Below are positions 13,401 to 30,128 of a stretch of 64,000 nt of DNA, one piece after another (the first letter of the stretch is position 1; every line of letters starts with the position of its first letter). A model generated the notes under the pieces. The model had not been told where the DNA came from. It did no database searches and saw nothing but the letters and a program-made list of their open reading frames with translations. The stretch comes from Methylomagnum ishizawai (GTDB lineage: Bacteria; Pseudomonadota; Gammaproteobacteria; Methylococcales; Methylococcaceae). Location of the stretch: NCBI RefSeq assembly GCF_019670005.1, contig NZ_AP019783.1, positions 2,754,150 to 2,818,149 on the forward strand, in the 5' to 3' direction. A program made the position numbers and the translations under genes.

Positions 13401-15614
13401 GCGACCCTCGCCGAGCCGCTGGACGCCGTCAACAACCGCGTCACCACCTGGACCTACGACAGCCTGGACCGTCCCACCCGGCGCGACGTGGCGGCGGGCG
13501 GCCAGTTGGAAACCACCCTGTTCGGCTACGACGCCCTCGACCACCTGACCCAGGTCACGGACGCCAACAACCAAACCACCCGCTATGTCTACGACGGCCT
13601 CGGCAACCTGACCAGCGCGACCAGCCCCAACACCGGCACCACCACCTACGGCTACGACGAGGCGGGCAACCTCGGCAACCACACCGACGCCAACACCGCC
13701 GCGCTGAACGCCGCCAACGGCACCGCCCTCAAGACCAGCACCCGCACCTACGACGCCCTCGACCGCCCGACCTCGATCGGCTTCGGCGATCCCGCCAACC
13801 TGGATATCACCTACACCTACGACCCGGCGGGCGGCCTGGGGCGGCTGGGCACGGTGGCGCAGGGCGGGGCCAGCACCGCCTACGGCTACGACCCGCGCGG
13901 CAACGTCACCGCCATCGCCGCCCAGCGGCCCGGCTACGACGCCGCCCACGACTGGATCGGCTACGCCTACAACAGCCTGGACCAAGCCATCCGGGTCGAT
14001 TTCGGCCAGCCCACCGCCGAGCGCAAGGTCTACTACGACCGCAACGCCCTGGGCCAGGTCACGCGGGTCCGGCTGAACCAGAACGGCGCCACCCAGAATT
14101 TGGCGACCGGATTCCAATACCGGCCGTCCGGCCCGCTGCTGGGGCTGACCTACGGCAACGGCCTGACCTACAAGCGGACCTTCAACCTCGACGACCGCAT
14201 CACCGATGTCGATGTGCCGGGCGTGATCGACAGCCACTACGGCTACGACGCCTACCGGGTCGATCTGGTGGCGTCCCTGTCCGACCCGGCCCTGCACGCC
14301 GGGGGGGCCTGGGGGCTGGGCTACGACGCGACCGGCGACCGCCTGACCACGGCGCAGGGGGATTTCGGGGCGCTGGCCTATGGCTACGACGGGGTGGGCA
14401 ACCGCCTGAACGAGACCCGCGACGGCCTCGCCACCCTGTATGGCTACGACCCGGCCAGCCAGCGCCTGCTGAACCTCGGCCAGGGTGGGACCACGGTCAA
14501 GGCCTACGGCTACGACGCCAACGGCAACGCCACCGCCCAGGGCGGCCTCGCCTTCGACTTCGGGGCCGACAACCGGCTGCGGCGGGTGCGCTCCGGGAGC
14601 CAGGAGGTCGCCCGCTACGCCTACGACGGCCAGGGCCAACGCATCACCAAGACGGTGGGCGGCGTGGCGCGGCAGTTCTACTATGGGCTGGACGGGGGCT
14701 TGCTGCGGGAAACCGGCCCGGACGGCGACCGCATCCACTTGGCGGTGGACGGCACGCCGCTGGCACTGGTGAACAACGGCACGGTGTACTACCCGCACCC
14801 CGACCGGCTCGGCACGGTCCAGCGCATCACCGACGCGGGCCAGCAGGTCGTGTGGTCGGCGCGGTACGAGCCGTTCGGCCAGGCCGTCATCGCTTCCGGC
14901 ATCGAGTACAACCCGCGCTTCCCCGGCCAGTACTACGACGCGGAGACGGGGCTGTACTACAACCACTTCCGGGATTACGATGCGGGGGTGGGAAGGTATG
15001 TGGAGAGCGATCCGATTGGGTTGCGGGGCGGGGTTAATACTTATGCTTATGTTGGTGGAAATCCAATCAGTTGGACCGATCCTCTTGGGTTGACGAATGC
15101 AGCGACGTATACTTGTTTAGCAGACCCGGCTCAACCGGTATGTTGGGTAGGGGTCGCATTTACTGCCTATACCATTCAAGGGATACTTAACGGAACCAAA
15201 AAATCCGGGAATTCCAACGATTGTGATTGTTCTGCTCCGGCGACATCGACTCCGGCATCGCCAGACCCTTTTGGAGAAGAGCCACCAGAGGTTAGGGGTA
15301 CCCAAATTGGTTTAAAAAACCCAGAATCAGTCGATCAAATAAAATCAGATATGCTAAATGGGCGTTATAATTACGAAACCCCAAGTGGGCAGATAGGCGG
15401 TTATGTTGATACCCGAGGGGTATATCACGTCGGAGAGGGGCATCATAGAATATGTGCTGCTCGTGAGATTTACCTTGAGACCGGCAACCCAAGACCGCTA
15501 AATAAATTGATAGCGAATGGTCGGTGGACGCCTAGAATCGATCCGCCTCAGGACAGCAGACCTCTTCCCTCACGCAATTTTTGGGACAATTTACGGAATC
15601 ATTTCGGGTTTTAA
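10488..15614 (+). CDS. Rhs/YD-repeat protein with ParB-like C-terminal toxin tip
   Basis: 1708 residues. A hydrophobic segment (WVGLWLGILVLFGL..SYA) near residue 30-50 looks like a signal peptide or anchor. From about residue 235 comes a DUF6531-like start (NPATGEKFQAETDIRLPLSG, RYYSSHG) and then many YD repeats (YGYD, YTYD). The conserved Rhs junction follows (FPGQYYDAETGLYYNHFRDY, GRYVESDPIGLRGG, NPISWTDPLGLT). The variable tip after it includes YVDTRGVYHVGEGHHRICAA, resembling ParB-type nuclease folds, and ends LRNHFGF. The core is GC-rich, while the N-terminal 200 codons and the tip are AT-rich, the usual sign of tip exchange. ATG 10488 has GAGGAA upstream; the frame is open earlier but lacks a ribosome site. 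Role: contact-dependent or secreted polymorphic toxin. Confidence 0.85.
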   Translation: MSFRLSQSMNRALLAHSGTSRNAGTQIPWHWVGLWLGILVLFGLPNRSYANIDCNDPLTTCAEPISGSWSYFYANTHFLGFSSPEEAAQAGQEYLRLQGCPTTFSLGSFTDDIYQGYGHANISPSPCAYLTTIGPSVQWSLGLEFSQYICADYTTQQCNPPAGSPPSITHNSLLVGRYRVVNCPDGYRADSDIDNFGTYFNGHICYKQNTNTPRFYLTAPHKPQCGGDLNKSNPCNPATGEKFQAETDIRLPLSGLAFTRYYSSHGLGENPAGMGVNWSHSFAQRLDRFYAAPTQAPGTPTSAMYAGRDTACTSGWNDIKAQAFGGAFQGATATYTAGLCQASLNGVTVMLEIHSSEGAVYSAESSGYANPDDEWHVVERPNGVRYLFRNQGGRWNPDASGIGVAWTDGTWAEQNHRPVKLARPDANTWRFTDEDGTVETYDRDGHLQTATDRAGRVTAYAYLDGKLDHITDPFGRVLQFAYDAGGQLLQSVTGPDGTVSYQYDAGNRLTTVVYPDDTPADPNDNPRRTYLYEKPALPYHLTGITDENNQRYATWDYDGLGRAVLGTHAGDADKTLFTYNANGTTTLTNALGGTQTYRYTVAGDGVRFGGVVDGATPAVLCPACGDSSNHDLKYDANGNVTERRDFKGNGTCYKYDGTDRNLETVRIEGFGPGEACPADPAAYTIPANSAKRKFTTDWHPTERLPVRSAGPRLLTLFHYQGDTVNGVAVDCGGTGPVLCDTSRQSTNDPSGTKAFTATPQGRVRAWHYTYNGLGQPTVIDGPRINVADTTTLEYYPLDAACPAGTDGNGCRGALKTATNALGHATAYQNHDANGRPRRIVDPNGLVTDLLYDRRGRLTQKTVGGNPTLYGYDGVGNLVKTTLPTLGYYSYTYDAAHRLTDITDSLNQRIHYTLDAAGNRAQEDIYNANNALATTHRRVYDPLGRLFQEFRRADDNRTERALQFGYDANANTATLAEPLDAVNNRVTTWTYDSLDRPTRRDVAAGGQLETTLFGYDALDHLTQVTDANNQTTRYVYDGLGNLTSATSPNTGTTTYGYDEAGNLGNHTDANTAALNAANGTALKTSTRTYDALDRPTSIGFGDPANLDITYTYDPAGGLGRLGTVAQGGASTAYGYDPRGNVTAIAAQRPGYDAAHDWIGYAYNSLDQAIRVDFGQPTAERKVYYDRNALGQVTRVRLNQNGATQNLATGFQYRPSGPLLGLTYGNGLTYKRTFNLDDRITDVDVPGVIDSHYGYDAYRVDLVASLSDPALHAGGAWGLGYDATGDRLTTAQGDFGALAYGYDGVGNRLNETRDGLATLYGYDPASQRLLNLGQGGTTVKAYGYDANGNATAQGGLAFDFGADNRLRRVRSGSQEVARYAYDGQGQRITKTVGGVARQFYYGLDGGLLRETGPDGDRIHLAVDGTPLALVNNGTVYYPHPDRLGTVQRITDAGQQVVWSARYEPFGQAVIASGIEYNPRFPGQYYDAETGLYYNHFRDYDAGVGRYVESDPIGLRGGVNTYAYVGGNPISWTDPLGLTNAATYTCLADPAQPVCWVGVAFTAYTIQGILNGTKKSGNSNDCDCSAPATSTPASPDPFGEEPPEVRGTQIGLKNPESVDQIKSDMLNGRYNYETPSGQIGGYVDTRGVYHVGEGHHRICAAREIYLETGNPRPLNKLIANGRWTPRIDPPQDSRPLPSRNFWDNLRNHFGF

Positions 15615-15631
15615 ATTTTAATGGTAAGTTT

Positions 15632-15979
15632 ATGTTGTCGAGAAAGCAGGAGTTGCTAAGGGACTTGCTCTGCCAATCATTGTCTTTTATTAGGAATAGG
15701 CAAACTTTGCCATGGTGGAGGAAAGCTTTTGATAAAGCTGTATACTTTGAATCAGAACTGGTTCATAATATTTCGCCATCAATATTTAATAGCGATTTCA
15801 CAGACCATGATATATGGTTTATAAATCATCAAGCAAAGTGGTACATAGAGAATTGCACGCCGGAAATTTCTCCGAATTACGATTTTGTAAAAAAGACTGT
15901 GGAGGAATTAATTGGGTTGGTTCCGCCATCTCTGGCTCACAAAATTCAAAACCAGTGTAACCCGTATAAGGCGCAATAG
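15632..15979 (+). CDS. Putative immunity protein for the Rhs toxin
   Basis: 115 residues, AT-rich, starting 17 bases after the toxin stop. It is a small helical, soluble protein (SRKQELLRDLLCQSLSFIR, KTVEELIGLVPPSLA) with no recognised family. Position directly behind an Rhs tip, matching base composition and size are those of a cognate immunity gene; this is inference. Starts upstream of 15632 would overlap the toxin gene. Confidence 0.65.
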   Translation: MLSRKQELLRDLLCQSLSFIRNRQTLPWWRKAFDKAVYFESELVHNISPSIFNSDFTDHDIWFINHQAKWYIENCTPEISPNYDFVKKTVEELIGLVPPSLAHKIQNQCNPYKAQ

Positions 15980-15980
15980 C

Positions 15981-16055
15981 ACGTAGGGTGGGGTGAACTG
16001 AGGGAACCGCATCGTTCGTGAACGGTGCGGTTCCTATCGTCACCGCACCCTACGG
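15981..16055. repeat. Palindromic intergenic repeat (REP/MITE-like)
   Basis: The outer arms ACGTAGGGTG and CACCCTACGG pair across 75 bases. Inside, GGAACCGCA pairs with TGCGGTTCC around a short loop. Nested stems of the 'cgtagggtg..caccctacg' type are dispersed repeats in many proteobacteria. No coding potential. Confidence 0.6.
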
Positions 16056-16085
16056 CGCTGGTCCACAACTACCGGCTCAGTAACC

Positions 16086-16340
16086 ATGTGGAAATTGATT
16101 CCTTGGCAACTTGTGTTCCTGATGATGTGCTTGCTTTTGGGAGCCTTTCTCTCAATCGGGCAAGCAATCACGTTCGCATGGCTTTCAACATTCCCGGAAC
16201 GAGCGTCGCAGATCGAATCATTGGAAATCAAATTCTGGAGCTATGCGGCGATTGCATTAGTTTTTGTGATTATCGATTTGGGATTGCTTGTTCGTCTGAT
16301 ACGGCACATCAAAAGAGAGAAGGGCCGTAAGGCGGAATAG
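16086..16340 (+). CDS. Small two-helix membrane protein
   Basis: 84 residues with two transmembrane helices (WQLVFLMMCLLLGAFLSIGQ and YAAIALVFVIIDLGLLVRLI) and a basic C-terminal tail (RHIKREKGRKAE). Family not recognised. It lies between two palindromic repeats downstream of the Rhs locus; its stop is embedded in the hairpin at 16331-16363. Confidence 0.6.
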   Translation: MWKLIPWQLVFLMMCLLLGAFLSIGQAITFAWLSTFPERASQIESLEIKFWSYAAIALVFVIIDLGLLVRLIRHIKREKGRKAE

Positions 16341-16363
16341 CCGATACTCCGGCGTATTCCGCC
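16331..16363. repeat. Hairpin GGCGGAATA / TATTCCGCC
   Basis: A perfect 9-bp stem (16331-16339 with 16355-16363) around the loop GCCGATACTCCGGCG. A degenerate copy (ATCGCCGGTATCCTGGCG then TATTCCGCC) follows the stop of the gene ending at 34090. Both lie directly at gene ends, so they may terminate transcription or be REP elements. Confidence 0.5.
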
Positions 16364-16392
16364 GCATGAGAGCCTGCCCGCCACCTCCGCAA

Positions 16393-16527
16393 TCACAGCG
16401 GACCGGGAACCCAAAACACCACCACCACCGAACCCAACGCCGGTGCCTCGCCCCTGACCTCCCCGGCCTGGACGAAGGCGTTCGCGCCGACCCCCACGCC
16501 CTGCCCCCGGACCCGCAACACCGCCAT
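16393..16527 (-). CDS. Possible small protein or 3' fragment
   Basis: A 44-codon frame (MAVLRVRGQGVGVGANAF.., ending FWVPGPL) with high GC at third positions and a Gly/Val-rich beta-like composition. It points away from the tail operon and lies between a repeat and the phage element at 16552. It could be the remnant of a structural gene. No ribosome site, so support is weak. Confidence 0.25.
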   Translation of the reverse strand: MAVLRVRGQGVGVGANAFVQAGEVRGEAPALGSVVVVFWVPGPL

Positions 16528-16551
16528 CACCCGGCCGATCCCGCCGTGCCC

Positions 16552-16560
16552 GGTCGTGAC
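16552..16560 (+). promoter_or_regulatory. GGTCGTGAC phage element 1
   Basis: GGTCGTGAC lies 14 bases before the first gene of the tail operon (ATG 16575). There is no Shine-Dalgarno sequence in between. One of eight copies placed upstream of phage transcription units; every copy has T at the eighth base after GTGAC. Confidence 0.65.
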
Positions 16561-16574
16561 GCCACCATACCCGC

Positions 16575-17771
16575 ATGGCGCTCACGACCCCCACCCCCAC
16601 ATCCCAGGCCGACAAGAACATCGGCTTCATCCTGGACCCCGGCCCGTTCGGCGGGCCGGTGGAATTCCATAACCTCGCCATCCGCCCGGAAGACCTGACC
16701 CGGACGGAACCCTCGCGCACCGTGGTCCAACAAACCCTGGGCGGTGCCTTCGTGGATTCCTTCGGGCGCGGCCTGGGGCAGATCACCCTTGCCGGGAACA
16801 CCGGGTGGAAGCGGAAATTCCCCACCCACCGGGATTGGCTGGAGGAGTACCTGCAACTGCGGGAGCGGGTCTACGCCGGTTGGCATTATCATCGGGAATT
16901 CCTCGCCCTCGCGGGTAAAGACCCCGACGAGGTGAAGTTGGTCTTTGTCGATACCCTGGACCGGATTTGCTCGGTGGTGGTGCCGTCCCAGTTCGTCATC
17001 AAGCGTTCGAAATCCCGCCCGCTGCTCATCGCCTACCACATCGTGCTGACGGTGGTGGAACCCGAGGCCGGGAACGCCTATGTCAAGGAGTTCAAGGATT
17101 TCACGGATCAAGAGCGCTGGTTCGCGAGCCAGGCCTCGCTGGGCGACGGCATCGATGCGATCGCCGCGTTCCTGGACGACCTCATCAACGACATCGACGG
17201 CATCGCCACGGCGATCACCCGGTTCGTCGATACCTACATCGTCGGCCCCATGAAGGCGTTCGTCGGCCTGACGGCCCGGGTGTTGGGGGTGGTGAACTCG
17301 GTCAACCGGGTGGTGGACGCCGTGTTCTCGGTGCCGATGACCTTGGCCCAGGGATTGACCCAGGCCGCCACCAACATCTTCCGCACCGTGGCGAACGTCG
17401 CCAACCTGCCGGACCGGGTGAAGGCCCGCTACATGGAAGTGGCCGGCGCGTTCCAGAACGCCTATTGCATCCTGACCAAGCTGGCCCGCAGGGCCCCGGC
17501 CACCCTGCCGAACTACCAGGATATCTACGGCGCGTCCAACTGCTCCTCGACCGTGCCGGGCACCGCGCCCCTGAGCCCACTGCGCGGCGTGAATCCCTTC
17601 TATTCGCTGACCACGCCGGTCGCCACCGCGCCGGTCGCGTCGGTATCGCCCGAGGCCCAGGCCGGCATCGACGACATGGCGAAGAACGACCCGGTGCTCT
17701 TCCCGCGCACCGGGGCCAACCTGCGGCGGGTGCTGGACACCATTTCCTCCGGCGTGGGGCTGGCCGCATGA
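16575..17771 (+). CDS. Phage tail/baseplate protein
   Basis: 398 residues, first gene of the plus-strand tail operon. The N-terminal 160 residues are a mixed-fold domain (LDPGPFGGPVEFHNLAIRPE, QTLGGAFVDSFGRGLGQIT, HRDWLEEYLQLRERVY). The middle is helical (residues 190-290) and the C-terminus less ordered. Such N-terminal domains occur in baseplate-associated proteins next to LysM/gp25 genes. The stop overlaps the next start (ATGA), so the two are probably translationally coupled. Exact role not recognised. Confidence 0.7.
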   Translation: MALTTPTPTSQADKNIGFILDPGPFGGPVEFHNLAIRPEDLTRTEPSRTVVQQTLGGAFVDSFGRGLGQITLAGNTGWKRKFPTHRDWLEEYLQLRERVYAGWHYHREFLALAGKDPDEVKLVFVDTLDRICSVVVPSQFVIKRSKSRPLLIAYHIVLTVVEPEAGNAYVKEFKDFTDQERWFASQASLGDGIDAIAAFLDDLINDIDGIATAITRFVDTYIVGPMKAFVGLTARVLGVVNSVNRVVDAVFSVPMTLAQGLTQAATNIFRTVANVANLPDRVKARYMEVAGAFQNAYCILTKLARRAPATLPNYQDIYGASNCSSTVPGTAPLSPLRGVNPFYSLTTPVATAPVASVSPEAQAGIDDMAKNDPVLFPRTGANLRRVLDTISSGVGLAA

Positions 17772-18394
17772 CCGCCACGATCTACGACCAACCGATCCCG
17801 GGCGTCCGCCTCGTCGAACTGCGCCACGGGGAAAGCCTGCAACGGCTGGCCCTGCGCGAACTCGGCGACATGGGCCGATGGGTGGACATCGCCAACCTCA
17901 ACGGCTTGAAGCCCCCCTACACCAGCGACGATCCCAACGACGCCGGGCCGGGCATCGCCATCGCGGGGGACAAGCTGTCGTTGCCGTCGCCCACCGCCCA
18001 GGTGTCGGCCTCCGACGCGCCGGACGAGGTGTTCTTCCGCGATTTCGACCTGGGCGCCGACGGCCTGCTCCGCGCCGACGACGCGGGCGACCTCGCCATC
18101 CTGTCGGGGGTGCCCAACCTCCGGCAAGCCTTGCGGCACGCCCTCGTCACCGATCCCGGCGAACTCATGCTCCACCCGGATTATGGATGCCGCATCCGGC
18201 GGCTGATAGGCCGGACCAATGCCCCCACCATCGCCCTGCTGGGCGGCCAGTATGTGCGCGGCACGCTGTTGTCGGATTCGCGCATCGCGGCGGTGGATAA
18301 CGTCCAGGTCGGGGCGTCGGGCGATGTCCTGGCGATCATGGCGGACGCGCGGACCGTCGCCGGGCGCACCATCACCACGGGGGCGGCGCTGTGA
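17768..18394 (+). CDS. LysM-gp25 (GPW) baseplate wedge fusion
   Basis: 208 residues. Residues 10-75 resemble a LysM repeat (VELRHGESLQRLALRELGD, WVDIANLNGL, GDKLSLPS). Residues 85-205 resemble the gp25/GPW lysozyme-like baseplate wedge (DLAILSGVPNLRQALRHAL, PGELMLHPDYGCRIRRLIG). Both functions are normally separate genes beside the J gene; here they form one polypeptide. It overlaps both neighbours by four bases. ATG 17768 is supported by the ATGA overlap with the previous stop. Confidence 0.8.
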   Translation: MTATIYDQPIPGVRLVELRHGESLQRLALRELGDMGRWVDIANLNGLKPPYTSDDPNDAGPGIAIAGDKLSLPSPTAQVSASDAPDEVFFRDFDLGADGLLRADDAGDLAILSGVPNLRQALRHALVTDPGELMLHPDYGCRIRRLIGRTNAPTIALLGGQYVRGTLLSDSRIAAVDNVQVGASGDVLAIMADARTVAGRTITTGAAL

Positions 18395-19530
18395 CCTTCC
18401 AGATCAAGGACGCCGTTTCCATCGCGGCCAGCCATATCAACCTCGCCCGGTCCATGCAGGACCGGGTGACGGATTTCGGCGTCGGCAGCAAGGCCCGCAC
18501 ACTGCTGGAAGCCCCGGCCATCGAGCTGGATATGCTCTACCAGGCCATGTTCCACGGCCTCGTGGACGCCATCGAGGTCTCGGTCTACCAGAGCTTCGGT
18601 TTCGGCCAGCTTCCGGCCTCGGCGGCCTATAACTTCGTGCGCTTCGCGGTCGATACCGCGCCGGATACGCCCATCGCCGTCCCGGCGGGCACCCAGGTCC
18701 AGGTGTCGGGCGGGACCGTGAAATACGTCACGCGGACCGGGGCCACGATCGTCGCGCCCGCCACCGATGTGTCGGTGCTGGCCTATTGCGACACGGCGGG
18801 CAGCGTGGGCAACACGGCGGCCGATACCATCACCGAATGGGCCGACACGCCGGTCGATGGCATCGCCGCCATCACCAACCCCGCCGCGTTCGTCAATGGC
18901 GCGGACTTGGAAACCCCGGATGCCCGCAAGGCCCGGTTCCAAGCCTACATCCAATCGCTCGGCAAGGGGCAGGTGGCCGCCCTCCGCTATGCGGCCCTGC
19001 AATGCGCCCTGGCCGACGACACCGGGACCGTGATCGAGCGCGTGGCCTATGCCTATGTGGATGAGCCGTGGGAAGCCGAGCCGGATACCTATCCCATCGG
19101 CCTGGTGAACGTGTACATCCACAACGGGGCCGGGGCCACGTCCGCCGAGCTGGTGGCCTTGGTGAAGCGGACCCTCGACGGCTATTGGGCCGACGCCGAC
19201 ACGCCGGTCATGGGGTGGAAGGCCGCGGGGGCGCATGTCGATGTCTATGCCGCCTCCGAGATAGGCGTGAACGTCGCGGGCGCCCTGGTTATCGCCGATG
19301 GCTACGCCGCGGCCTCGGTCATCGCCGCCGCCAGCGCCGCCGCCACCGCCTATATCCAGTCCATCCCGCAGGGCGGCACATTCGTCCTGTCCGAACTCGT
19401 CGCCCGCCTCAAGCGCGATGTCGCCGGGGTGGCCTCCGTGATCATCTCCCTCCCCGACAACACGGATATCGGGTTCGCCCCCGGCCAGAAGCCCATGCCG
19501 GGCACGATCGCCTTGACGGTAGGCCCATGA
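18391..19530 (+). CDS. Baseplate J-like protein (gp47 family)
   Basis: 379 residues. Hallmarks of the baseplate J family are seen: an N-terminal helix (FGVGSKARTLLEAPAIELDMLYQAM), the central beta domain (PIAVPAGTQVQVSG, GSVGNTAADTITEW), the signature ADLETPDARKARFQAYIQSLGKG (shown in part), and a C-terminal domain ending NTDIGFAPGQKPMPGTIALT. It forms the baseplate wedge with the gp25-like protein. It starts with GTG at 18391, overlapping the preceding stop. Confidence 0.88.
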   Translation: MTFQIKDAVSIAASHINLARSMQDRVTDFGVGSKARTLLEAPAIELDMLYQAMFHGLVDAIEVSVYQSFGFGQLPASAAYNFVRFAVDTAPDTPIAVPAGTQVQVSGGTVKYVTRTGATIVAPATDVSVLAYCDTAGSVGNTAADTITEWADTPVDGIAAITNPAAFVNGADLETPDARKARFQAYIQSLGKGQVAALRYAALQCALADDTGTVIERVAYAYVDEPWEAEPDTYPIGLVNVYIHNGAGATSAELVALVKRTLDGYWADADTPVMGWKAAGAHVDVYAASEIGVNVAGALVIADGYAAASVIAAASAAATAYIQSIPQGGTFVLSELVARLKRDVAGVASVIISLPDNTDIGFAPGQKPMPGTIALTVGP

Positions 19531-20534
19531 CCCAGGTTCAAGTCCTCGACAACGCCGTTTCCCAACTCCAAAGCAAGGTCGCCGCCGGGGCCGTGGCCCT
19601 GGCGCTGCTGCCCGGCATGGGGACCCGGTTCCCGCTTCGGGCGGGCTATCACTCCTACGTGCGCCTGGGCACCGACAACGCCAACGAGGTGGTGAGGTTC
19701 ACCGCCCGGAACGGCGATGTGCTGGCCTGCGAACCCACCGCCCGGGCGTGGCCGGCCGGCACCCATGTCATCGCGACGATTTGCTCGGCCCTGTTGAACG
19801 ACCTCAAGCTCGACGGCCAGGGCGATATCCTGGCGGCGGCGAACGCCTATACCGACGCGGCGGTAGCGGACCTCTCTTTGGACACGATCGCCGCCGACCA
19901 TGTGACCTACGCCAATGCCGGGCACCCTGGGATCGCCAACGTCCAGCAGGCGCTGGACACCCTGCTGTATGTGGCCCCCCAGGCATCCATCACGAACAGC
20001 GTCGGCACGGTCGAGATCGGCTCGACGGTCGCCGCCGTCACGCTGGACTGGACCGTCAACAAGGCGGTCGTCGCCCAGTCCATCGCCGCGCCCGGCCCCG
20101 GCGCCATCGACCCGGCCCTGCGGACGCTGGCCCTGTCCGGGCTGCGCCTCACGGCGGACACCACGTTCACCCTGGCCGTGGACGACGGCGCCCACGCCGC
20201 CAGCGCCTCGACCCAGGTGCTGTTCCGCCACCGGCGGCGCTGGGGCGTGTCGGCCCGGGCGGTGCCGGACGCGGCCTTGATCGACGCCCTGGCCGGGGCC
20301 GAATTCGCGGCGGGGCGGGCGCAATCGCGGTCGTTCTCGCCGTCCGGCCAGTACGTCTATTTCGCCTGGCCGTCGAGCTTCGGCACGCCGACCTTCCTGG
20401 TCAACGGCCTGCTCAACACCGCCTGGGTCAAGACCACGGTGGGCTATACCAACCCCAGCGGCTACACCGCCGATTTCGACGTGTACCGCAGCCAGTTCCT
20501 CCAATCCGGCGGCCAGCAGGTGGTGGTCCAATGA
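19527..20534 (+). CDS. Phage tail structural protein
   Basis: 335 residues, coupled to the J gene (ATGA at 19527). Beta-rich, with a Thr/Ala-rich C-terminal half (TTFTLAVDDGAHAASASTQV, SFGTPTFLVNGLLNTAWV). It lies where P2-like phages keep tail fibre or baseplate-tip genes. No family recognised. Confidence 0.65.
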   Translation: MTQVQVLDNAVSQLQSKVAAGAVALALLPGMGTRFPLRAGYHSYVRLGTDNANEVVRFTARNGDVLACEPTARAWPAGTHVIATICSALLNDLKLDGQGDILAAANAYTDAAVADLSLDTIAADHVTYANAGHPGIANVQQALDTLLYVAPQASITNSVGTVEIGSTVAAVTLDWTVNKAVVAQSIAAPGPGAIDPALRTLALSGLRLTADTTFTLAVDDGAHAASASTQVLFRHRRRWGVSARAVPDAALIDALAGAEFAAGRAQSRSFSPSGQYVYFAWPSSFGTPTFLVNGLLNTAWVKTTVGYTNPSGYTADFDVYRSQFLQSGGQQVVVQ

Positions 20535-22237
20535 GCGCTATCCAGGGCACCCACGTCGCCGCGCCCATCGTGCCGGGCGATACGGCGGATATCTTCCCCA
20601 GCCATGTCGATATTTACGGCCAGGGCGGCTACCGGGCGGTGGCGGACGACGCGGCGCGGGACGCCATCCCCGCGCCCCGCCGCAGCGCCGGGATGTTGAT
20701 CTGGCACGGCCAGGACCAACTTTTCTATCGCCTCGACGCCGATCTGGCCACTTGGTTGCCCGCGTTCGACTTCATCCCCGCGCCGGCGCTGGACACCGAT
20801 TCGACCATGGCCGCGAACTCGGATAGCCGGGTTCCGAGCCAGAAGGCCGTCAAAACGGCGCTGGATCTGAAGCTGGACGCATCGGCCTATAACGACCGCT
20901 TCAAGGGGCTCTATTCCACGCTATCGGCGCTACAAGCCGCCCGCCCCACGGGCGCGGCGGGCGACTATGCGCAAGTGGATTCAGGGCTGGGCGGGGCACC
21001 GCATATCTATTCGTGGGACGTGAGCGACGATGCGTGGGCGTTGACCAGCGCGGGCGGCACCGGGGCGGCGAACACGGACCAGCTTCCCGAGGGTTCGACC
21101 CACCTCTATTTCACGGCGGCGCGGGCCGTCGCGGCCTGTACCGGGGTGTTCCAGGCGGCCTCCGGCCTGCTGACGGCCCTCGCCGGGCTGTCCGGGACGG
21201 GATGGCTCAAATTCACGTCCGGCACGCCTTCGGTGGCGGGCATCACCGCTTCGGACGTGTCCGGCCTGGGCAGCGCCGCCACCCGAGACGTGGGCGCCGG
21301 ACCGGGCGAAGTGGCGGCGGGGGACGCCCCGAATGCGGCGGTCGCGGCCCATGCCGCGGCTACCGATCCCCATGGGGACCGCGCCTATGCCGACGCCATC
21401 GTGGCGGCCAAGGCGCCCCTGGCCTCCCCCGCGCTGACCGGCATCCCGACCGCGCCCACGGCGGCGCTTGGCGCCAATACCAACCAAGTCGCCACCATGG
21501 CCGCCGTGAAGGCCGCCATCGACGCGCTGGTGGCGGGAGCGCCGGGAGCGCTCGACACCCTCGACGAAATCGCCACGCAGCTTGCCAACGACGAAAGCGC
21601 CGTCGCCGCGCTGACGGCGGTGGTGGCGGATAAGCAGCCGCTGGACGCCACCCTGACCGCGCTGGCCGCCCTCGTGACGGCGGCGGATAGGCTGGTCTAT
21701 GCCGATGGGGTGGATTCCTTCGCCACCACCGACCTCACCGCCTTCGGGCGGACCTTGGCCGGGTTGGCCAATGTGGCGGCGCTGAAAACCCTGCTCGGCC
21801 TGGCCGTGGGGGATATTGCCGGCCTGGGCAGCGCCGCCACCCACGCCGCCGACGACTTCGCCACCGCCGCCCAGGCCGCGGCGCTGGCGGGCTACGACCT
21901 GCCGTTTTGCTTCGAGGGGTCGCCGGGGGCCGGGGCGCGGCTCGCCGCCATCCTCCTGGTCCGGCCCGTGTGGCTGCCCTTCGACCTGGACGGGTCGATA
22001 TTCCGGGTGGACGGGGCGGCGGGGGATTACGCGCTGGCCGTCCAGCACCTCCGCGACGGGGAGGTGCTGGTCGCGGGCACGGCCACCCTGCACCCCGACG
22101 GCACGGCGACGCTGGCCCTGGACGGCGACGTGGACGGCCAGCCGGGCGACGAGCTTTGGATATCCGCCCCGGCCACGCCCGATGCGGGCGTGACCTCGGT
22201 CCGGGGCACGATCAAGGCGGAGGCCGTCTTGCCATGA
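20531..22237 (+). CDS. Tail fibre-like protein
   Basis: 568 residues, coupled to the previous gene. It has the low-complexity Ala/Thr/Asp/Leu pattern of phage fibres: DTDSTMAANSDSRVPSQKAV, STHLYFTAARA, GLGSAATRDVGAGPGEVAAG and GLGSAATHAADDFA. The segment with KAPLASPALTGIPTAPTA is common in fibre shafts. The N-terminus probably attaches to the baseplate and the C-terminus (EVLVAGTATLHPDGTATL) is beta-rich. Confidence 0.8.
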   Translation: MSAIQGTHVAAPIVPGDTADIFPSHVDIYGQGGYRAVADDAARDAIPAPRRSAGMLIWHGQDQLFYRLDADLATWLPAFDFIPAPALDTDSTMAANSDSRVPSQKAVKTALDLKLDASAYNDRFKGLYSTLSALQAARPTGAAGDYAQVDSGLGGAPHIYSWDVSDDAWALTSAGGTGAANTDQLPEGSTHLYFTAARAVAACTGVFQAASGLLTALAGLSGTGWLKFTSGTPSVAGITASDVSGLGSAATRDVGAGPGEVAAGDAPNAAVAAHAAATDPHGDRAYADAIVAAKAPLASPALTGIPTAPTAALGANTNQVATMAAVKAAIDALVAGAPGALDTLDEIATQLANDESAVAALTAVVADKQPLDATLTALAALVTAADRLVYADGVDSFATTDLTAFGRTLAGLANVAALKTLLGLAVGDIAGLGSAATHAADDFATAAQAAALAGYDLPFCFEGSPGAGARLAAILLVRPVWLPFDLDGSIFRVDGAAGDYALAVQHLRDGEVLVAGTATLHPDGTATLALDGDVDGQPGDELWISAPATPDAGVTSVRGTIKAEAVLP

Positions 22238-22650
22238 TGGGACATCGCGTCATCACCGGGACCGCGCCGCACGGTGGCGGCGGCGGCGGCGAAGGGGCGC
22301 CGGTCCCGGTGTTCCAGGTCGCCGCTTATTTCGGCGGCGAGGGCAGTTCGTGGTCGAGCGTGTTCCAGGATGGGGAGGGGGGCTGGGTGGTCAACGTGGG
22401 CATATCCGGGAGTTCGGTGTTGGTCCGCCTCGACGCCACCGGTTCCTACGATCCCGCCGGCGGGACGCTGGAGTTCCTGTGGAGCTTCCCGCCGCCCTTC
22501 ACCCTCGACGACCCCACCGCGTCCGCGCCCAGCGGCCTCTGGCCCGCCAATAGCGGGCAATATTCCGGGGTGACGTTCTTGACGATCACCTCGACCGCCA
22601 GCGGGTTGTCCACCGTCCTGACCGGCACGTTGCAGATCAATTGGTTCTGA
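22234..22650 (+). CDS. Small phage structural protein
   Basis: 138 residues, coupled to the fibre gene through ATGATG. It has a Gly-rich N-terminus and then an Ig-like beta pattern (VGISGSSVLVRLDATGSYDPAGGTLEFLWSF in outline), which resembles PKD/Ig modules. It may decorate the fibre. Function not established. Confidence 0.6.
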   Translation: MMGHRVITGTAPHGGGGGGEGAPVPVFQVAAYFGGEGSSWSSVFQDGEGGWVVNVGISGSSVLVRLDATGSYDPAGGTLEFLWSFPPPFTLDDPTASAPSGLWPANSGQYSGVTFLTITSTASGLSTVLTGTLQINWF

Positions 22651-22676
22651 CCGTCCCCTTTTCACCGGAGGTTTCC

Positions 22677-23591
22677 ATGGCGCTAGAAGGCGCGGGCGCA
22701 TGGTCGACGATGCAAGCCCGGATGCTGGACTCCCTGCACCGGGTCTTCAACAAAGACCCCCTTCCGGTCTTGGCCTTCCGCTTGCGCTACGACGGCGACG
22801 CCATGGCTTGGGCCGTCCGGGATGGCGTGCTGGCGCTGACCGTCGCGGGCGGGACCGGCGCGGGCGGGGCCATCGACCTGCGCGGCCATACCCTCGCCAC
22901 CCTGGCCGATTTCCTGGCCGCGCAGGCGGGCTACACGGTCCTGGATGAAAACCCCGCCGTGGGCCATCTCTCGGCGCTGACGCTGTTCGGCGCGGGCGAC
23001 CCGGCGGCCAGCGATGGCGACCACCTCTACGCCTTCACCAACCTGCTGTGGGCCTTTTTGGCGGCCTACGCGGTCGAGTTGGGCGCGGCGCGGGACCGGA
23101 TCGCGGCGGCGCTGGCGCAAATGGTGTTGCAAACCGCCGATTTGGATTGGCTGCAAGAGCACAATACCTATTATGGGATCGCCTGGATTCCCGGCGAGGC
23201 GCCGGTCGATTATGCCAACCGCACCGTGGCGGAGGTATTGCAGCAGCGCGGCAATAACGTCGCCCTGGAATCCCTGATACTCAACGCCACCGGGATGCGC
23301 TGCGATGTCGTGGATGTGGGCGATGGCAGCATCTATTGGGATGGGGTGGAATCCTTCGATGGGGATGTGCCGTTCTCTGGCTATCCAGCGGCCTATGGGC
23401 TATTCGATGTGATCATCCCGAACATTCCTTCCACGCCGGACCAAGACGCCATGTTGGTGGCGACGATCCGCCGGATCGTGGACGAAAACCGATGCGCTGG
23501 GTTCCACGTCCGCCAGATAGGCCGGGTCGTGGCGTGGAATGGCTCGTATTCATTCGATGGGGCTATCGCTTTCGATAGCGTCCCCGCTTAG
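22677..23591 (+). CDS. Phage tail protein
   Basis: 304 residues. The N-terminal half is Ala/Leu-rich and helical (LLWAFLAAYAVELGAARDRI). The second half (NRTVAEVLQQRGNNVALESL, VVDVGDGSIYWDGVESFDGD) resembles P2 gpI-type tail proteins only loosely. GGAGG lies eight bases before ATG 22677. Placed between fibre-type genes, so a baseplate-fibre connector is plausible. Confidence 0.55.
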   Translation: MALEGAGAWSTMQARMLDSLHRVFNKDPLPVLAFRLRYDGDAMAWAVRDGVLALTVAGGTGAGGAIDLRGHTLATLADFLAAQAGYTVLDENPAVGHLSALTLFGAGDPAASDGDHLYAFTNLLWAFLAAYAVELGAARDRIAAALAQMVLQTADLDWLQEHNTYYGIAWIPGEAPVDYANRTVAEVLQQRGNNVALESLILNATGMRCDVVDVGDGSIYWDGVESFDGDVPFSGYPAAYGLFDVIIPNIPSTPDQDAMLVATIRRIVDENRCAGFHVRQIGRVVAWNGSYSFDGAIAFDSVPA

Positions 23592-23612
23592 CTCTTTATA
23601 GGGGTTATCCAA

Positions 23613-24539
23613 ATGACAAACTTCACTGGGACCGCATCGTTCGATCCCGTCCGCCGGATCGAAATCTCCGACCGCGTCCTCGGGGGCGATCCCGCATCGT
23701 CGCCGATCAATGGCACCCTGCAATCCCTGGTCAACCGCGACACCTACCTGCAAAGCGTGGCGGCGGCGGCGGCGGGCTTGGCGATCCGCTACGCCCGCCT
23801 GGCCGTGACGGGCAATGTGTCGGCGCTGTCGGGGTTGTCCACCCGCGATGGCGTGACCCCGGGCGCGGGCGATATCATCCTGTTGACGGCGCAAACCACC
23901 GCCGCGCAGAACGGCCTGTGGGTGGCGGCCTCCGGGGCGTGGACCCGGTTCGCCAACGCGAACGGCGATACCGGCCTCCCGCCGGGGTGCTTGGTGTCGG
24001 TGTCGGAGGGCGCGATCAATGCCGGTACCCTGTGGCTATTGAATACGCCCGCGCCCATCGTCGTGGGCACCACGGGCTTGGCTTTCGGCCTATACCAGCC
24101 CCGCGCCATGGTGGCGATGGTGGGTAAGTCGGTATCCCAGGATATTCCCGGCGGGGCAGGCAACGATACCAAGATAACATTCAATCCAAGTCCAGATTTC
24201 GACGCCTTTGCCCTGTGGAACGCCAGTGGCAACCGCTTTATCGCCAAGCAGGCGGGAATCCATGAAGTGGGCGGAGGTATATATTTCGATCACCCCGGCA
24301 TAAATACCCCTTGCCTGCTCACGGTCTGGAAAAATGGAGCGCCCTATAAACGGGTGCTGGAAATCGGAGGATCGAACGCGAATGTCACGGCGGGATTCGG
24401 CGGGTTGCCGGTCGCGCTGAATGTCGGGGATTATGTCGAGCTCTACGCGGCGGTGGTTGATGACGGCACATGGACGATAGGCGCGGATGGCGATGCCAAA
24501 TCGGCGTATTTCCATATCAGGTATGCCGGGCGGGGGTAA
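23613..24539 (+). CDS. Putative receptor-binding protein with C1q-like C-terminus
   Basis: 308 residues. Residues 35-165 look like a shaft or attachment segment (GVTPGAGDIILLTAQTTAAQNGLWV, in part). From about residue 205 the pattern HEVGGGIYFDH, CLLTVWKNGAPYKRVLEI, PVALNVGDYVELYAAV fits the jelly-roll C1q/TNF-like heads seen at the tips of phage fibres. This would be the adhesin. Assigned by fold pattern only. Confidence 0.6.
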   Translation: MTNFTGTASFDPVRRIEISDRVLGGDPASSPINGTLQSLVNRDTYLQSVAAAAAGLAIRYARLAVTGNVSALSGLSTRDGVTPGAGDIILLTAQTTAAQNGLWVAASGAWTRFANANGDTGLPPGCLVSVSEGAINAGTLWLLNTPAPIVVGTTGLAFGLYQPRAMVAMVGKSVSQDIPGGAGNDTKITFNPSPDFDAFALWNASGNRFIAKQAGIHEVGGGIYFDHPGINTPCLLTVWKNGAPYKRVLEIGGSNANVTAGFGGLPVALNVGDYVELYAAVVDDGTWTIGADGDAKSAYFHIRYAGRG

Positions 24540-24545
24540 CGGTCC

Positions 24546-27500
24546 ATGGCCGGCGTCAAAATCCCTGTCGAAGCCGAGTTGGGCGATATTTCCAAGGCGG
24601 TCGAACAACTCGTCGCCCGCGTCCGGTCGGCGACGGACGACCTGCGGCGCGGCCTCGAAGTCACCCTCGACACCGGCCGCGCCCAGCGGGACATCGACGC
24701 GCTCATCGCCAAGCTGGGCGAACTGGACGCCAAGATCGGACAGGCCCGGTCCGTCGGCATCGACACGGCGGGCGCGGCCGCGCGGTCCACCGAGGCCCGG
24801 CAGGCCCAGGGCGCGTACCAAGCCGAACTGGACCGGGCCGAGCGGGACATGGAGGCATGGCAAAAGTCCATCGGCGGCGGCCCCATGGCGTCGTGGCAGG
24901 CCAACCTGTCCGGCGCGGGCGGCGGCGCGTTCGACTTCCGCCCGGCGGTCCAGATGGCCGAAGCCCTCACGGGCAGGGTGGCGGCGGCGACCACCCACAC
25001 CGACCGGCTCAGGCGGGCGCAGCGCGAATACCGCGAGGAGGTGCGCGGCACGGCGGAAGAATGGGCGAAGCTCACGGGACAAGGCTTCACCGAGCGGCAG
25101 GCCGAGGCGGCGAATACATGGCTGGGCCAGCACATCGCCAGCGAGGGCCGGTTCGCGCCGTTCATGCGCGGCTTCGGGGTCGGCGACGTAGGCTCCGACG
25201 GGTGGCGGGAACAATTCGGCACGCCCGGCGCGGCCAAGCGCATCGCCCAGGGCATCGCCGCCGGCGGTATGGGGGCGGCGGGGATGGAAGCGCCCGGCCA
25301 CCAGTGGGCGGAAAGATTCGCCAAGGGCGCGACCGGCGTCGCGGCCAACGCCATCCTGAACGGGGGCGACGGCGGCGCGATGGGGATGGCCGGGGGCGCC
25401 CTGGGCGGCTTGTTGCCCGGCGTGGGCGGCGTCGCCGGGGCCGTGGTGGGGGCCGCCGTGGGCGGCGCGGTGGACCGGGGCATGGAAAAGGCCCTGGCCG
25501 AAGCCCTGGAGACCTCGGCGCTCAGGAAGAACCTGGGCGGCCTGTCGGAGGAATTCGACCAATTGCGGGCCGTGGCGCGGGCGGCGTCGGACGGCCTGGG
25601 CATGACCGCCACCGAATTCATGGGGGCGGAGCGCCGCTTCGCCGGGATGGCGGGCACGCGCCCCGAGGAGGCCCGCAACCTCGTGGCCGAGACCCGCGGC
25701 GCTTCGCAGTTCGCCCGCTCGCTGGGCACCGGGCCGGATTCGGCCATCGCCTTCTTCGCCAGCCAACGCCAGTTCGGCGTCACCCGCGACGAGGAAGGCT
25801 CGCGCCGGATGGCCCTCGCCATCGCCGAAGCCCTCAACAAGGGCGGCCTGTTCGCCAAGGCCGACGAGCTCATGCAGGCCGTGGCCGAGTTCACGGCCCA
25901 GGCGGCGCGCACCGGCAGGACCGCGCCCGACGTGGGCGGCTATGTGGACCTGCTGGGGACGCTGACGGCGCGGGGCGGCCCCTACGAGCGGGACATCCAG
26001 GGCGCGGTGTCGTTGTTCCAGAGGATGGACGCCGGGTTCCGGGGGCCGGGCAGCGAGGGCTGGAACAATTTCCTGCTGGGCCAATATCAGGGCGCGGCGG
26101 GTCGGAATTTCGACGCCTTCGACCTGCAAGTCATGAAGGAGGGCGGCTTGTTGGGGACGCTGCGGGGCGGCTGGAACAGCGTCGCCAAAGGCGCTGATGC
26201 GGCGACGGCGGCGCACTGGAAATCGATGATGGGCGGGGGCGCGGATGTCGCCACCCTGGACCTCATCATGCCCGGCATCATGCGCGAGGCGGGCGGGAAC
26301 CGGCGCATGGCCGCGCAGATGCTCCACGAGAACATGGGCATCGGTTCACGGGAAGCGTACGACTGGCTGGGGCTCGCCAAGCAGCCCGGCGGCGCGACCG
26401 GCATCCTGAAGCGGTTGCAGGGCTTGAAGGTGGACACGGACAACGTGCCCATGGGCAACCTGCTGGCCCTGGCCCAACTCGCCACCGGCAACCGCGAAGA
26501 CCTGATGAAGCAGGCCCGGCGCTTGATGTCGGGCGATGGCTACGAGGCCGTGGCCGGGACCGACCGCGACCGGCTGGAAAAGGCCATGGGCGGCTCGGAT
26601 GCCGACCTCCGGCAAACCGTCATCGACCTGACCAAGGACCGCGAGATGAAGGACCTCGCGGAATCGAGCCTCGACACGCAAAAGCGGATCGAACAGGGTA
26701 TCGCCTCCATATCCTCGAACCTGCTGGAACTCAAAGCCGCCGCGCTCGCCAAGATGTTCGGTTCGCCGGGGACGTATGCCCAGACTATGAAGGATTGGGC
26801 ATTGGCGGGGGATGTCGCGGATCGGGATAGCGTGGTGGACCCCGCGTTGACCCGGATGAAAGAGCGGGGCGACCGTATCGCCTTCCTGCGTAATGCGTTG
26901 GCACATGGGGAATATCCGAATGGCCCCCATGGAACGCATGTGCCGCCGGAAACCTTGCAGGGTTATAAGACCGAATTGGATCGGTTGCTGGCGGAGCATC
27001 AGCGGGATTCGGCGCTCGTCAAGGGGGCGTTTGAGCGATACACCAGCAAGGAACAATCCTACGACCGCCAGGAATTCATCCGCCGGATCCAACCGGCGGC
27101 GGAGCGTGCCGCTGAGAAGCACCACATTCCCGCCGATGTGCTGATGGCGCACGCCGCCCAAGAGACCGGCTGGGGTAAACATGTCCACGACAACAACCTA
27201 TTCAATATCACCGGCAGCTATCACGGCCAAAGCGTGGTGCGCGGCGATACCGATGCCACCGGAAAGCGCATCGGCCAGCGTTTCAAAGTCTACGGGTCCA
27301 TCGACGAGAGCTTCGAGGACTTGGCCGACCTGTTGAGCCGCAAATATCCGGGCGCGGTCGGCGCGAAGTCGGCCTACGAATATGGCGCTGCCTTGAAGAA
27401 GGGAGGGTATGCCGCCGACCCTGGGTATGCCAAGCATATTGACGAGCGGGCGCAGGAGGTACGTCGCATCACGGGAACCCCGCTCCCGCCCGGCACGGCG

Positions 27501-27665
27501 CAATACGGCGCGGATGGGCGCATCAGTGTGGACCCCATGAGGATCGAGGTCACGCATACCCATACCGACCCTTCCGGTGTCCCCATCGCGCCGCCGCAAA
27601 TCCAGACCTACACCGCCAAGCCCCGCTTGAATCCGGGGCGTCCGCCGCTTTCGGGGCTTTTCTAG
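24546..27665 (+). CDS. Tape measure-like protein with C-terminal GH73 glucosaminidase
   Basis: 1039 residues. The N-terminus is coiled coil (SKAVEQLVARVRSATDDL..). A hydrophobic Gly/Ala helix region lies near residues 280-315 (MAGGALGGLLPGVGGVAGAV), and long helices follow to about 800. These are tape-measure traits, setting tail length and passing DNA. Residues 850-985 match the FlgJ/GH73 N-acetylglucosaminidase fold (EKHHIPADVLMAHAAQETGW, NNLFNIT, SFEDLADLL); the Glu in QETGW is the expected catalytic acid. The lytic domain would open the peptidoglycan during DNA entry. Confidence 0.82.
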   Translation: MAGVKIPVEAELGDISKAVEQLVARVRSATDDLRRGLEVTLDTGRAQRDIDALIAKLGELDAKIGQARSVGIDTAGAAARSTEARQAQGAYQAELDRAERDMEAWQKSIGGGPMASWQANLSGAGGGAFDFRPAVQMAEALTGRVAAATTHTDRLRRAQREYREEVRGTAEEWAKLTGQGFTERQAEAANTWLGQHIASEGRFAPFMRGFGVGDVGSDGWREQFGTPGAAKRIAQGIAAGGMGAAGMEAPGHQWAERFAKGATGVAANAILNGGDGGAMGMAGGALGGLLPGVGGVAGAVVGAAVGGAVDRGMEKALAEALETSALRKNLGGLSEEFDQLRAVARAASDGLGMTATEFMGAERRFAGMAGTRPEEARNLVAETRGASQFARSLGTGPDSAIAFFASQRQFGVTRDEEGSRRMALAIAEALNKGGLFAKADELMQAVAEFTAQAARTGRTAPDVGGYVDLLGTLTARGGPYERDIQGAVSLFQRMDAGFRGPGSEGWNNFLLGQYQGAAGRNFDAFDLQVMKEGGLLGTLRGGWNSVAKGADAATAAHWKSMMGGGADVATLDLIMPGIMREAGGNRRMAAQMLHENMGIGSREAYDWLGLAKQPGGATGILKRLQGLKVDTDNVPMGNLLALAQLATGNREDLMKQARRLMSGDGYEAVAGTDRDRLEKAMGGSDADLRQTVIDLTKDREMKDLAESSLDTQKRIEQGIASISSNLLELKAAALAKMFGSPGTYAQTMKDWALAGDVADRDSVVDPALTRMKERGDRIAFLRNALAHGEYPNGPHGTHVPPETLQGYKTELDRLLAEHQRDSALVKGAFERYTSKEQSYDRQEFIRRIQPAAERAAEKHHIPADVLMAHAAQETGWGKHVHDNNLFNITGSYHGQSVVRGDTDATGKRIGQRFKVYGSIDESFEDLADLLSRKYPGAVGAKSAYEYGAALKKGGYAADPGYAKHIDERAQEVRRITGTPLPPGTAQYGADGRISVDPMRIEVTHTHTDPSGVPIAPPQIQTYTAKPRLNPGRPPLSGLF

Positions 27666-29141: not shown

Positions 29142-29172
29142 GGCCGCGTCCTTGCGGCGGGGGTTGGTCAGC
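29142..29172 (+). terminator. Operon-end repeat, copy 1
   Basis: A 31-bp sequence beginning GGCCGCGTCCTTGCGG lies just after the stop of the plus tail operon. Its complement at 41612-41642 follows the stop of the capsid operon on the minus strand, with one difference in 31. CCGC pairs with GCGG around GTCCTT. Its place behind two phage operons suggests a terminator or processing site. Confidence 0.5.
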
Positions 29173-29824
29173 AGGCTTGGTTCCCGGCCTCTATTCTGTT
29201 GATCATCTTCCCCATCCTGGCTATGCAATGGATGGCGGCGAAGGGGAGGAGGTCGGGGGCGACGTGCTTGTCGAGGAAGCGCGTGATTTCATCCTCGTTG
29301 GCCGTATCGACCACCACCGCGCCCTCGCCGACCACCTCGACGTGAACGACGCGCCCGCTTTCGATAGTCACCAACAACCGGGTGTTGGGTAGTGAGAATG
29401 GGATTTCCACTTGTTCGGGGTGGGTGGGCTTGGGGCTGGGCGCGGCGGGTTCGCGGTGCCAGTGCCGGTACAGCACGTCGTAGCATTCGCACTGGTAGGC
29501 GAGGATGGTTTCCCGCAATGCCGGCTTGACGCGGTTCACGTCCACGCCGAACAGCCAGCCGTTCAGGAGCTTGAGTGGGAGGGCGATGACTTCGCGGCGC
29601 TGGTCGTCGCCGGGCATCTGAATGTCCATCATGGACATGCAGGTCGAAAGAATCGGATTGCGCTTGATGCGCTTTTCTTGTGCCGCCCATTGAAGGCCCA
29701 TGCCTTCAACAATAGGCTTCATGGCGGCATAAGGTTCGCCGTTGTAGAGAAAAGTGATCAGAGGTTGACCGTGAAAATTGACGGTCGCGGGGACGCTAGG
29801 CGCGACTTGGGCATGTGCGTTCAT
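29168..29824 (-). CDS. Phage antirepressor (P22 AR N-terminal domain)
   Basis: 218 residues. The N-terminal 125 residues carry the P22 AR-type antirepressor domain (NFHGQPLITFLYNGEPYAAM, IVEGMGLQWAAQEKRIKRNP, IALPLKLLNGWLFGVDVNRV, LAYQCECYDVLYRHW). Such proteins bind and inactivate the phage repressor. The C-terminus (PNTRLLVTIESGRVVHVEVV) is a separate unknown domain. ATG 29824 has AAGGAG eight bases upstream and is preferred to 29863. The gene lies behind a C4-like leader that would hold it silent in the lysogen. Confidence 0.85.
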   Translation of the reverse strand: MNAHAQVAPSVPATVNFHGQPLITFLYNGEPYAAMKPIVEGMGLQWAAQEKRIKRNPILSTCMSMMDIQMPGDDQRREVIALPLKLLNGWLFGVDVNRVKPALRETILAYQCECYDVLYRHWHREPAAPSPKPTHPEQVEIPFSLPNTRLLVTIESGRVVHVEVVGEGAVVVDTANEDEITRFLDKHVAPDLLPFAAIHCIARMGKMINRIEAGNQAC

Positions 29825-29987
29825 GGGACGGACTCCTTGACTGAGGTTGGAAACCGTCTCCAAACTGGGTGATAATCAGCAAATTGGAGACGGGTTGCGC
29901 GAGGTTATCACCACCGGGTCAAGGAACCGGCCCGTCCGAAGACGGCCCCACGCAGCCCGCCATAACTTGTTAGGGACGCCACGGGCA
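29825..29987 (-). promoter_or_regulatory. Target leader of the antirepressor with icd-like ORF
   Basis: Downstream of the attenuator the minus strand reads AGTTATGGCGGGCTGCGTGG. The ATG opens a 14-codon ORF, an icd-like leader peptide. GTGGGGC (29951-29945) and CCGGTGGTGATAA (29917-29905) are complementary to segments of the upstream RNA. The order of elements matches 741-895. Confidence 0.6.
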
Positions 29988-30080
29988 AAGAAAAAGCCCA
30001 GGGGCGCGAGAATTGGGGCTGTGCGCCTTGATCATACCGGGGGTGATAAGTCCCGGCCCCAGCACTGTGGGGCGGGGGTA
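29988..30080 (-). ncRNA. C4-like antisense RNA of the antirepressor
   Basis: On the minus strand the leader has GCCCCAC (30073-30067), a GTGCTGGGG hairpin arm, TTATCACCCCCGG (30049-30037), and the attenuator AGCCC..GGGCT with TTTTCTTT (ending about 29988). GCCCCAC is exactly complementary to GTGGGGC at 29951-29945. TTATCACCCCCGG pairs with 29917-29905 at 12 of 13 positions. Upstream, TTGACA, 18 bases and TACGCT form a promoter overlapped by the palindrome at 30105-30128. P1/P7 C4 RNA regulates ant in this way. Confidence 0.72.
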
Positions 30081-30104
30081 GCGTAGGCGGATTTTTAGAT
30101 CGGT

Positions 30105-30128
30105 GTCAATGTGAATATTTACATTGAC
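30105..30128. promoter_or_regulatory. Operator-like palindrome, copy 3
   Basis: A 24-base inverted repeat with arms GTCAATGT and ACATTGAC around GAATATTT. It is perfect apart from one mismatched pair in the centre. Read on the minus strand it contains GTAAATATTCAC as in copies 1 and 2, and it abuts the TTGACA box of the antirepressor leader. It probably binds the phage repressor. It also lies upstream of the plus-strand HEPN-like gene. Confidence 0.6.

Follow-up and report, generated by a model that had tools for sequence, protein, structure and literature searches.

C4-type antisense RNA modules with cognate-specific complementarity in Methylomagnum ishizawai and their apparent relation to the IsrK RNA

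The stretch of Methylomagnum ishizawai DNA analysed here (64,000 nucleotides, hereafter the window) contains two leaders, module 1 on the plus strand and module 2 on the minus strand, that a preliminary description read as C4-type antisense leaders in which complementarity was kept while the sequences changed, and this raises the questions of what kind of RNA the leaders encode, which of their segments pair, and whether each RNA is private to its own targets. The assignment to C4 was borne out by matches to Rfam family RF01695, whose covariance model is matched end to end (1-87 of 87) by both modules, and by the canonical fold, which in minimum-free-energy predictions comprises an outer stem and two inner hairpins, with the segment a' in the junction and b' in the second loop. 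We put at roughly 0.9 the probability that the locus is a prophage immunity module built on a C4-type antisense RNA, a textbook kind of immunity RNA of phages, here in a new host; the family match, the layout, and the cognate-specific complementarity given below are observations.

Module 2, read along the minus strand, opens with an operator-like palindrome of putative function, GTAAATATTCAC (30111-30122), which adjoins the −35 element of a promoter-like pair of hexamers read by eye (30080-30109; TTGACA at 30109-30104 and TACGCT at 30085-30080, spacer 18). A 5' leader hairpin containing the string GCCCCAC, GCCCCACAGTGCTGGGGC, is predicted at 30056-30073. It is followed by two putative upstream C4-binding sites, a1 (TTATCACCCCCGG, 30037-30049, with the core TTATCACC), which is complementary to a', and b1 (TCAAGG, 30026-30031), which is complementary to b', and then by three helices: H0 (GGC/GCC, 30017-30027), which has only 3 bp here and overlaps b1 by 2 nt; the terminator-like H1 (AGCCC/GGGCT, 29995-30020, then a U-rich run at 29995-29987), which is weak here, with a predicted probability of about 0; and H2 (29976-30007), a predicted hairpin that competes with H1 and holds the U-run inside its loop. 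The C4 RNA itself spans 29883-29967 (67 bits, cut-off 45) and includes the b' loop TTCCTTGAC (29926-29918) and a' CCGGTGGTGATAA (29917-29905), as well as an ATG in its 5' end (29963-29961) that opens a 14-codon frame; of the 117 loci compared below, 96 have an ATG within the initial 12 bases of C4. Downstream lie two further putative C4-binding sites, a2 (TTATCACC, 29868-29875), complementary to a', and b2 (GTCAAGGA, 29834-29841), complementary to b' and positioned over the ribosome-binding site, and then the antirepressor-type gene (29168-29824, 218 aa), which has a P22_AR_N domain (PF10547, E 3.3e-34). A BLAST comparison of the leader and gene region with phage records returned no match.

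The leader sites of module 1 (681-704, plus strand) are a1 at 681-692 and b1 at 699-704; its C4 RNA lies at 757-843 (RF01695, 66.3 bits, and the fold; b' loop 798-808, a' 813-820), and a2 (848-855) and b2 (880-888) precede a KilA-N gene (896-1447; PF04383, E 6.3e-20) that appears to be truncated next to an rve-type transposase gene (1391-2470, minus strand). This apparent truncation, together with the weakness of the terminator-like element in both modules, would suit a decayed and functionless remnant of a C4 module, but in module 2 the P22_AR_N gene is intact and no pairing with the module's own sites has been lost, and we consider decay improbable. An ATG inside the module 1 C4 RNA begins a frame without a stop that continues into the KilA-N gene (761-1447). 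Between the two modules, prophage-type genes occupy 8593-27662 (integrase, virion structural protein, baseplate wedge, tail fibre, and endolysin), and an RHS-repeat frame of 1728 codons lies at 10428-15614.

The record of phage P1 (AF234172) is annotated in the order putative a1, putative b1, c4, a2, b2, icd. The order a1-b1-c4-a2-b2 recurs in module 2, so that the upstream segment of the leader is a P1-type a1 and the segments that the preliminary description had called targets belong to C4, within which the Rfam model also places them. The module order it had proposed for both leaders stands as regards the −35- and −10-like hexamers (by eye), the 5' hairpin, the U-run element, the ATG, and the complementary segments, but the roles it assigned were swapped. 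The strings that it quoted were found on the minus strand where it had placed them, and in the longer pair, TTATCACCCCCGG (30049-30037) with CCGGTGGTGATAA (29917-29905), which is a1 with a', 12 of 13 positions pair. The shorter pair, GCCCCAC (30073-30067) with GTGGGGC (29951-29945), had been offered as functional and was rejected, having shown no cognate preference over 85 loci (z = 0.3); in the predicted fold, GCCCCAC forms one side of the 5' leader hairpin, and GTGGGGC is part of the C4 stem. Three pairings had been overlooked: b' with b2 before the antirepressor start, b' with b1, and a' with a2. The reading of the U-run element ('attenuator') as a plain terminator was dropped for module 2, because its U-run is looped within the stronger H2 and H1 has 5 bp.

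Pairing was compared across 117 oriented C4 loci, made up of 71 from the family, P1, 28 from the class (the class search lists 63 C4 matches, nine of them in the M. ishizawai genome, and 28 new loci were used), and 17 from the named genomes within a set of 35 antirepressor relatives. Similar loci were collapsed to 97 or 85 representatives. A U-run between b1 and C4 was found in 112 of the 117 leaders, and the five leaders without one (L010, L022, L036, L119, and L140) were dropped. Each C4 was scored by ungapped complementarity against its own sites and those of all other loci, and z values were obtained from permuted partners, with kinship among the loci ignored. This scoring replaced one by duplex energy over wide windows, which was noisy and swamped by G+C content (ranks of 69/99 for a'-a2 and 85/99 for b'-upstream in module 1, and of 33/99 and 50/99, respectively, in module 2).

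Complementarity is maintained through sequence change across C4 loci, as the preliminary description had proposed from two modules. Among the 97 non-redundant loci, cognate partners stood out from permuted ones at z = 28.0 for b'-b2, 21.5 for a' with the upstream site, 14.0 for a'-a2, and 9.0 for b' with the upstream site, and 11 control comparisons fell between −1.3 and 1.4. When windows were set by the U-run in 85 leaders, the values were 29.1 for b'-b2 (own site in the best tenth for 76 of the 85), 22.3 for b'-b1 (72 of 85), 20.4 for a'-a1 (68 of 85), and 15.6 for a'-a2 (52 of 85), beside controls of 0.2 and −1.4. Fixed windows did not confirm that the 5' hairpin is conserved (z = 1.6), the position of the hairpin being variable. 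These figures bear on the view that the upstream hairpin region is itself the antisense RNA and that it acts on targets at 29951 and 29917 within an icd-like frame. The strings on which that view was built are indeed complementary, but the C4 model covers both supposed targets, the pair GCCCCAC/GTGGGGC shows no preference for its own partner, and the pairing at the ribosome-binding site is b'-b2 (z = 29.1); we regard the view as very improbable indeed.

Ten C4 matches are present in the M. ishizawai genome, nine of them above the Rfam cut-off. The module's own a2 and b2 together were the best target for all ten C4s, the own C4 was likewise best for all ten targets, and own a1 and b1 were best for seven of the ten; the nearest cross-match was that of the L005 C4, which scored 43.0 on the L009 target and 45.0 on its own. 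Within the window, scores on the own a2 and b2 were 43.0 (module 2) and 49.0 (module 1), against 24.5 and 27.5 on each other's, so that the two modules, judged by their sequences, look target-specific, in agreement with what had been proposed for them, and are likely to be independent switches. About ten sequence-distinct antisense switches in one genome would be natural material for orthogonal RNA regulation.

At the level of transcription, both window promoters carry GTAAATATTCAC beside the −35 hexamer (three of the ten own-genome modules do so in total), and possibly they therefore answer to one common regulator; the window modules may share a transcriptional regulator yet keep private RNAs. 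The 12-base palindrome GTRAATATTYAC occurs in the window at 608-619, 10372-10383, and 30111-30122, where 0.12 sites would be expected (at most one mismatch). Genome-wide it has 12 sites, several of which adjoin TTGACA, the reversed control pattern has no site in the same genome, and we treat the palindrome as a candidate shared operator.

The transcription, processing, and repression of the C4 module, and its roles in lysogeny and as a decoy, we infer to run as follows. A single promoter would give a transcript carrying the leader (a1, b1), the C4 RNA, a2, b2, and the antirepressor gene, in that order, from which C4 would presumably be excised as in P1; passages of PMC5320573 describe processing of the P1/P7 C4 by RNase P to about 77 nt. 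The junction segment a' would then bind a2, and b', the loop segment, would bind b2 over the ribosome-binding site, whereupon the antirepressor would not be made and lysogeny would be maintained, by analogy with what is reported for P1. C4 would also be able to bind upstream, at a1 and b1, which probably serve as a decoy or a feedback element, and a short leader RNA could sequester C4; in relatives with a strong terminator, C4 may also drive the leader into termination. Because each module has a private code in a'/b' and in its sites, the modules of one genome should act largely independently.

Like the C4 of P1/P7 (RF01695) with its c4-a1b1 leader (RF03163), the modules combine the order a1-b1-C4-a2-b2-gene with the C4 fold and cognate pairing. 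Unlike P1/P7, a P22_AR_N antirepressor gene follows b2 here without an intervening icd gene, the a'/b' code is new, and the module 2 leader falls under the detection of the c4-a1b1 model (no match at E ≤ 1; module 1 reaches 24.1 bits, below the cut-off of 46.7); sites complementary to a' and b' are present upstream in both modules. Many C4-type RNAs per genome, with a variable a', are also a feature of the Group 1 C4-like sRNAs of Acinetobacter baumannii, one strain of which has 21 C4-like RNAs; in the relevant passages of PMC5320573 these are read as possibly adapted to host targets, whereas here a matching target adjoins each RNA. The layout further resembles that of phage P4 CI RNA with seqA and seqC, an antisense RNA cut from a transcript and complementary to sites on both of its sides (main text of PMC4825925); the P4 CI RNA acts by premature termination, a step that in C4 leaders is only predicted.

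The part of this analysis that may be new to specialists concerns IsrK, an RNA of a Salmonella prophage on which genetic work has been published. Across 369 class genomes (E ≤ 1e-5), 37 of 38 matches to isrK (RF01394), nine of the 38 being above the Rfam cut-off, lie 7-55 nt upstream of a C4 on the same strand, and 37 of the 63 C4 matches have an isrK match upstream; 14 control genomes gave no isrK match. In Gifsy-1, the source of IsrK, a C4 (69 bits) lies 25 nt after isrK and is followed by an antirepressor-like gene, and the leader also matches c4-a1b1 (RF03163). When bases are numbered from nt 1 of IsrK, 12 of 12 checked bases agree with those named in the main text of Hershko-Shalev et al. 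2016 (PMC4825925), C4 occupies nt 103-186, and the AUG of orf45 (nt 107) falls within it and opens a frame of 45 codons, as published there. For IsrK and orf45 the same text reports two compensatory pairs, G31/C159 and G28/C162, in each of which the first base belongs to a1 (nt 25-32) and the second to a' (nt 158-165); as described there, they are independent experimental support, in a relative, for the a1:a' pair. Since isrK lies directly upstream of C4 and the compensatory pairs fall on a1:a', IsrK appears to be a terminated C4-operon leader; and since C4 at nt 103-186 contains the orf45 AUG and its 45-codon frame is found, STnc1160, described in that text as an RNA of ~80 nt processed from orf45, is very probably C4.

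The window modules resemble IsrK/orf45 (STnc1160)/anrP of Gifsy-1 in having C4 and then an antirepressor-like gene, and in the a1:a' pairing. The Gifsy-1 work treated IsrK as an activating sRNA and orf45 (45 aa) as translated; unlike orf45, the C4 ATG here gives 14 codons (module 2) or an in-frame run into the gene (module 1). With the isrK model, module 2 has no match at E ≤ 1 and module 1 reaches 32.5 bits (E 0.002), below the cut-off of 50, while module L005 of the same genome reaches 53.3 bits. In the main texts of the open-access literature searched, a link between IsrK and C4 operons was not found stated, and the only co-mention of 'isrK' and 'C4 antisense' found there was a Xylella table listing the two side by side; the main text of PMC4825925 contains 'phage P1' 0 times, and passages of a 2025 review give IsrK and c4 as separate RNAs. 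Should IsrK indeed be a C4-operon leader, a single system has been described in two separate literatures: the compensatory mutations of Gifsy-1 already test a1, a site labelled 'putative' in the P1 record, and the P1 C4 explains the identity of orf45/STnc1160.

Three competing helices recur in the leaders: H0, formed by a segment that overlaps b1 and a second segment; H1, formed by segments 2 and 3 before the U-run and terminator-like; and H2, formed by segment 3 and a segment beyond the U-run. Each favoured its own partner in 85 leaders (z = 7.8, 9.1, and 11.0; controls −1.3, −0.6, and −0.6), and within the genus only (16 leaders) H2 gave 4.7 and H1 3.6 beside a control of −0.1. From models of these helices comes a tentative addition to the C4 module, possible in our judgement though short of even odds, in which the leader would be both an attenuator and an anti-antisense RNA. 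H0 with H2 would permit read-through and H1 would be the terminator; C4 pairing at b1, which overlaps H0, would free the terminator, so that C4 stops its own operon early, and the short terminated leader (an IsrK-type RNA), with its a1/b1, would titrate C4. The first 2-3 nt of H0 lie under b1 in 60 of the 82 H0-bearing leaders, P1 included (1-5 nt in 71); 77 of the 82 scored a b1/H0 overlap, and in six the end of b1 lies 8-30 nt past the start of H0, where overlap is not necessary. Detection of H0 demanded overlap with H1, and hence these counts arise partly by construction, from which the cross-locus test is free.

Folding predictions, which left out leaders with b1 past the start of H1 (81 or 80 of the 85 kept), pointed both ways. 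With b1 blocked, the predicted H1 was 0.75 instead of 0.49 (of 80 leaders, 43 rose and three fell), and with an equal block further upstream it was 0.55 (a rise in 23 leaders, a fall in 14), the two blocks differing at Wilcoxon p 7e-7; but the effect of the b1 block was smaller in a longer transcript (0.40 to 0.53), and in P1 the control block was stronger (0.53) than the b1 block (0.37). The isrK matches, all but one directly upstream of C4, speak for such an attenuator, as do two statements in the main text of PMC4825925: IsrK supplied in trans in Gifsy-1 raised an anrP translation fusion 139-fold and a transcription fusion 8-fold, of which the former would fit C4 soaked up by leader RNA, and its authors proposed, by analogy with P4 CI RNA, a possible influence of STnc1160 on how transcription ends at the IsrK terminator. 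The same text reports, however, that constitutive STnc1160 in Gifsy-1 made IsrK toxicity stronger, not weaker. As for a terminator of the short RNA in the window modules, the U-run is present, but the H1 stem is weak and predicted not to form: H1 was 0.00 free and 0.04 with b1 blocked in module 2, and in module 1 it moved in the wrong direction, from 0.23 free to 0.02 blocked. Modelled folding lends no support to C4-controlled early termination in these two modules. That C4 operons, including that of P1, carry an attenuator operated by an RNA in trans, with the stopped leader (the IsrK class) as a decoy that inactivates C4, strikes us as somewhat unlikely; were it true, a single antisense/anti-antisense feedback switch would unite IsrK, c4-a1b1, C4, and perhaps sRNA-Xcc1, and would occur in as many as about ten copies in a genome, each specific with respect to the others.

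One or more C4 matches were obtained from 18 of the 38 genomes of the family and from 24 of the 369 of the class. Antirepressor-type domains encoded downstream of C4 include P22_AR_N, KilA-N, AntA, and ORF6N, and three of six further downstream proteins that were searched had no Pfam family. In 35 related loci, the place before P22_AR_N-type genes is taken by C4 in 17 and by sRNA-Xcc1 (RF02221) in six (L057, L062, L068, L073, L075, and L083, near 2857-2961), where leader and ribosome-site complementarity was noted by eye. Cognate preference of sRNA-Xcc1 was weak over these only six loci (own best in 2, 2, and 3 of 6), and it may be a variant of C4. One congener has thirteen C4 matches, and a congener array places three C4 modules (L018, L014, and L023; G001:C1:3357899-3359924) on one strand within ~2 kb.
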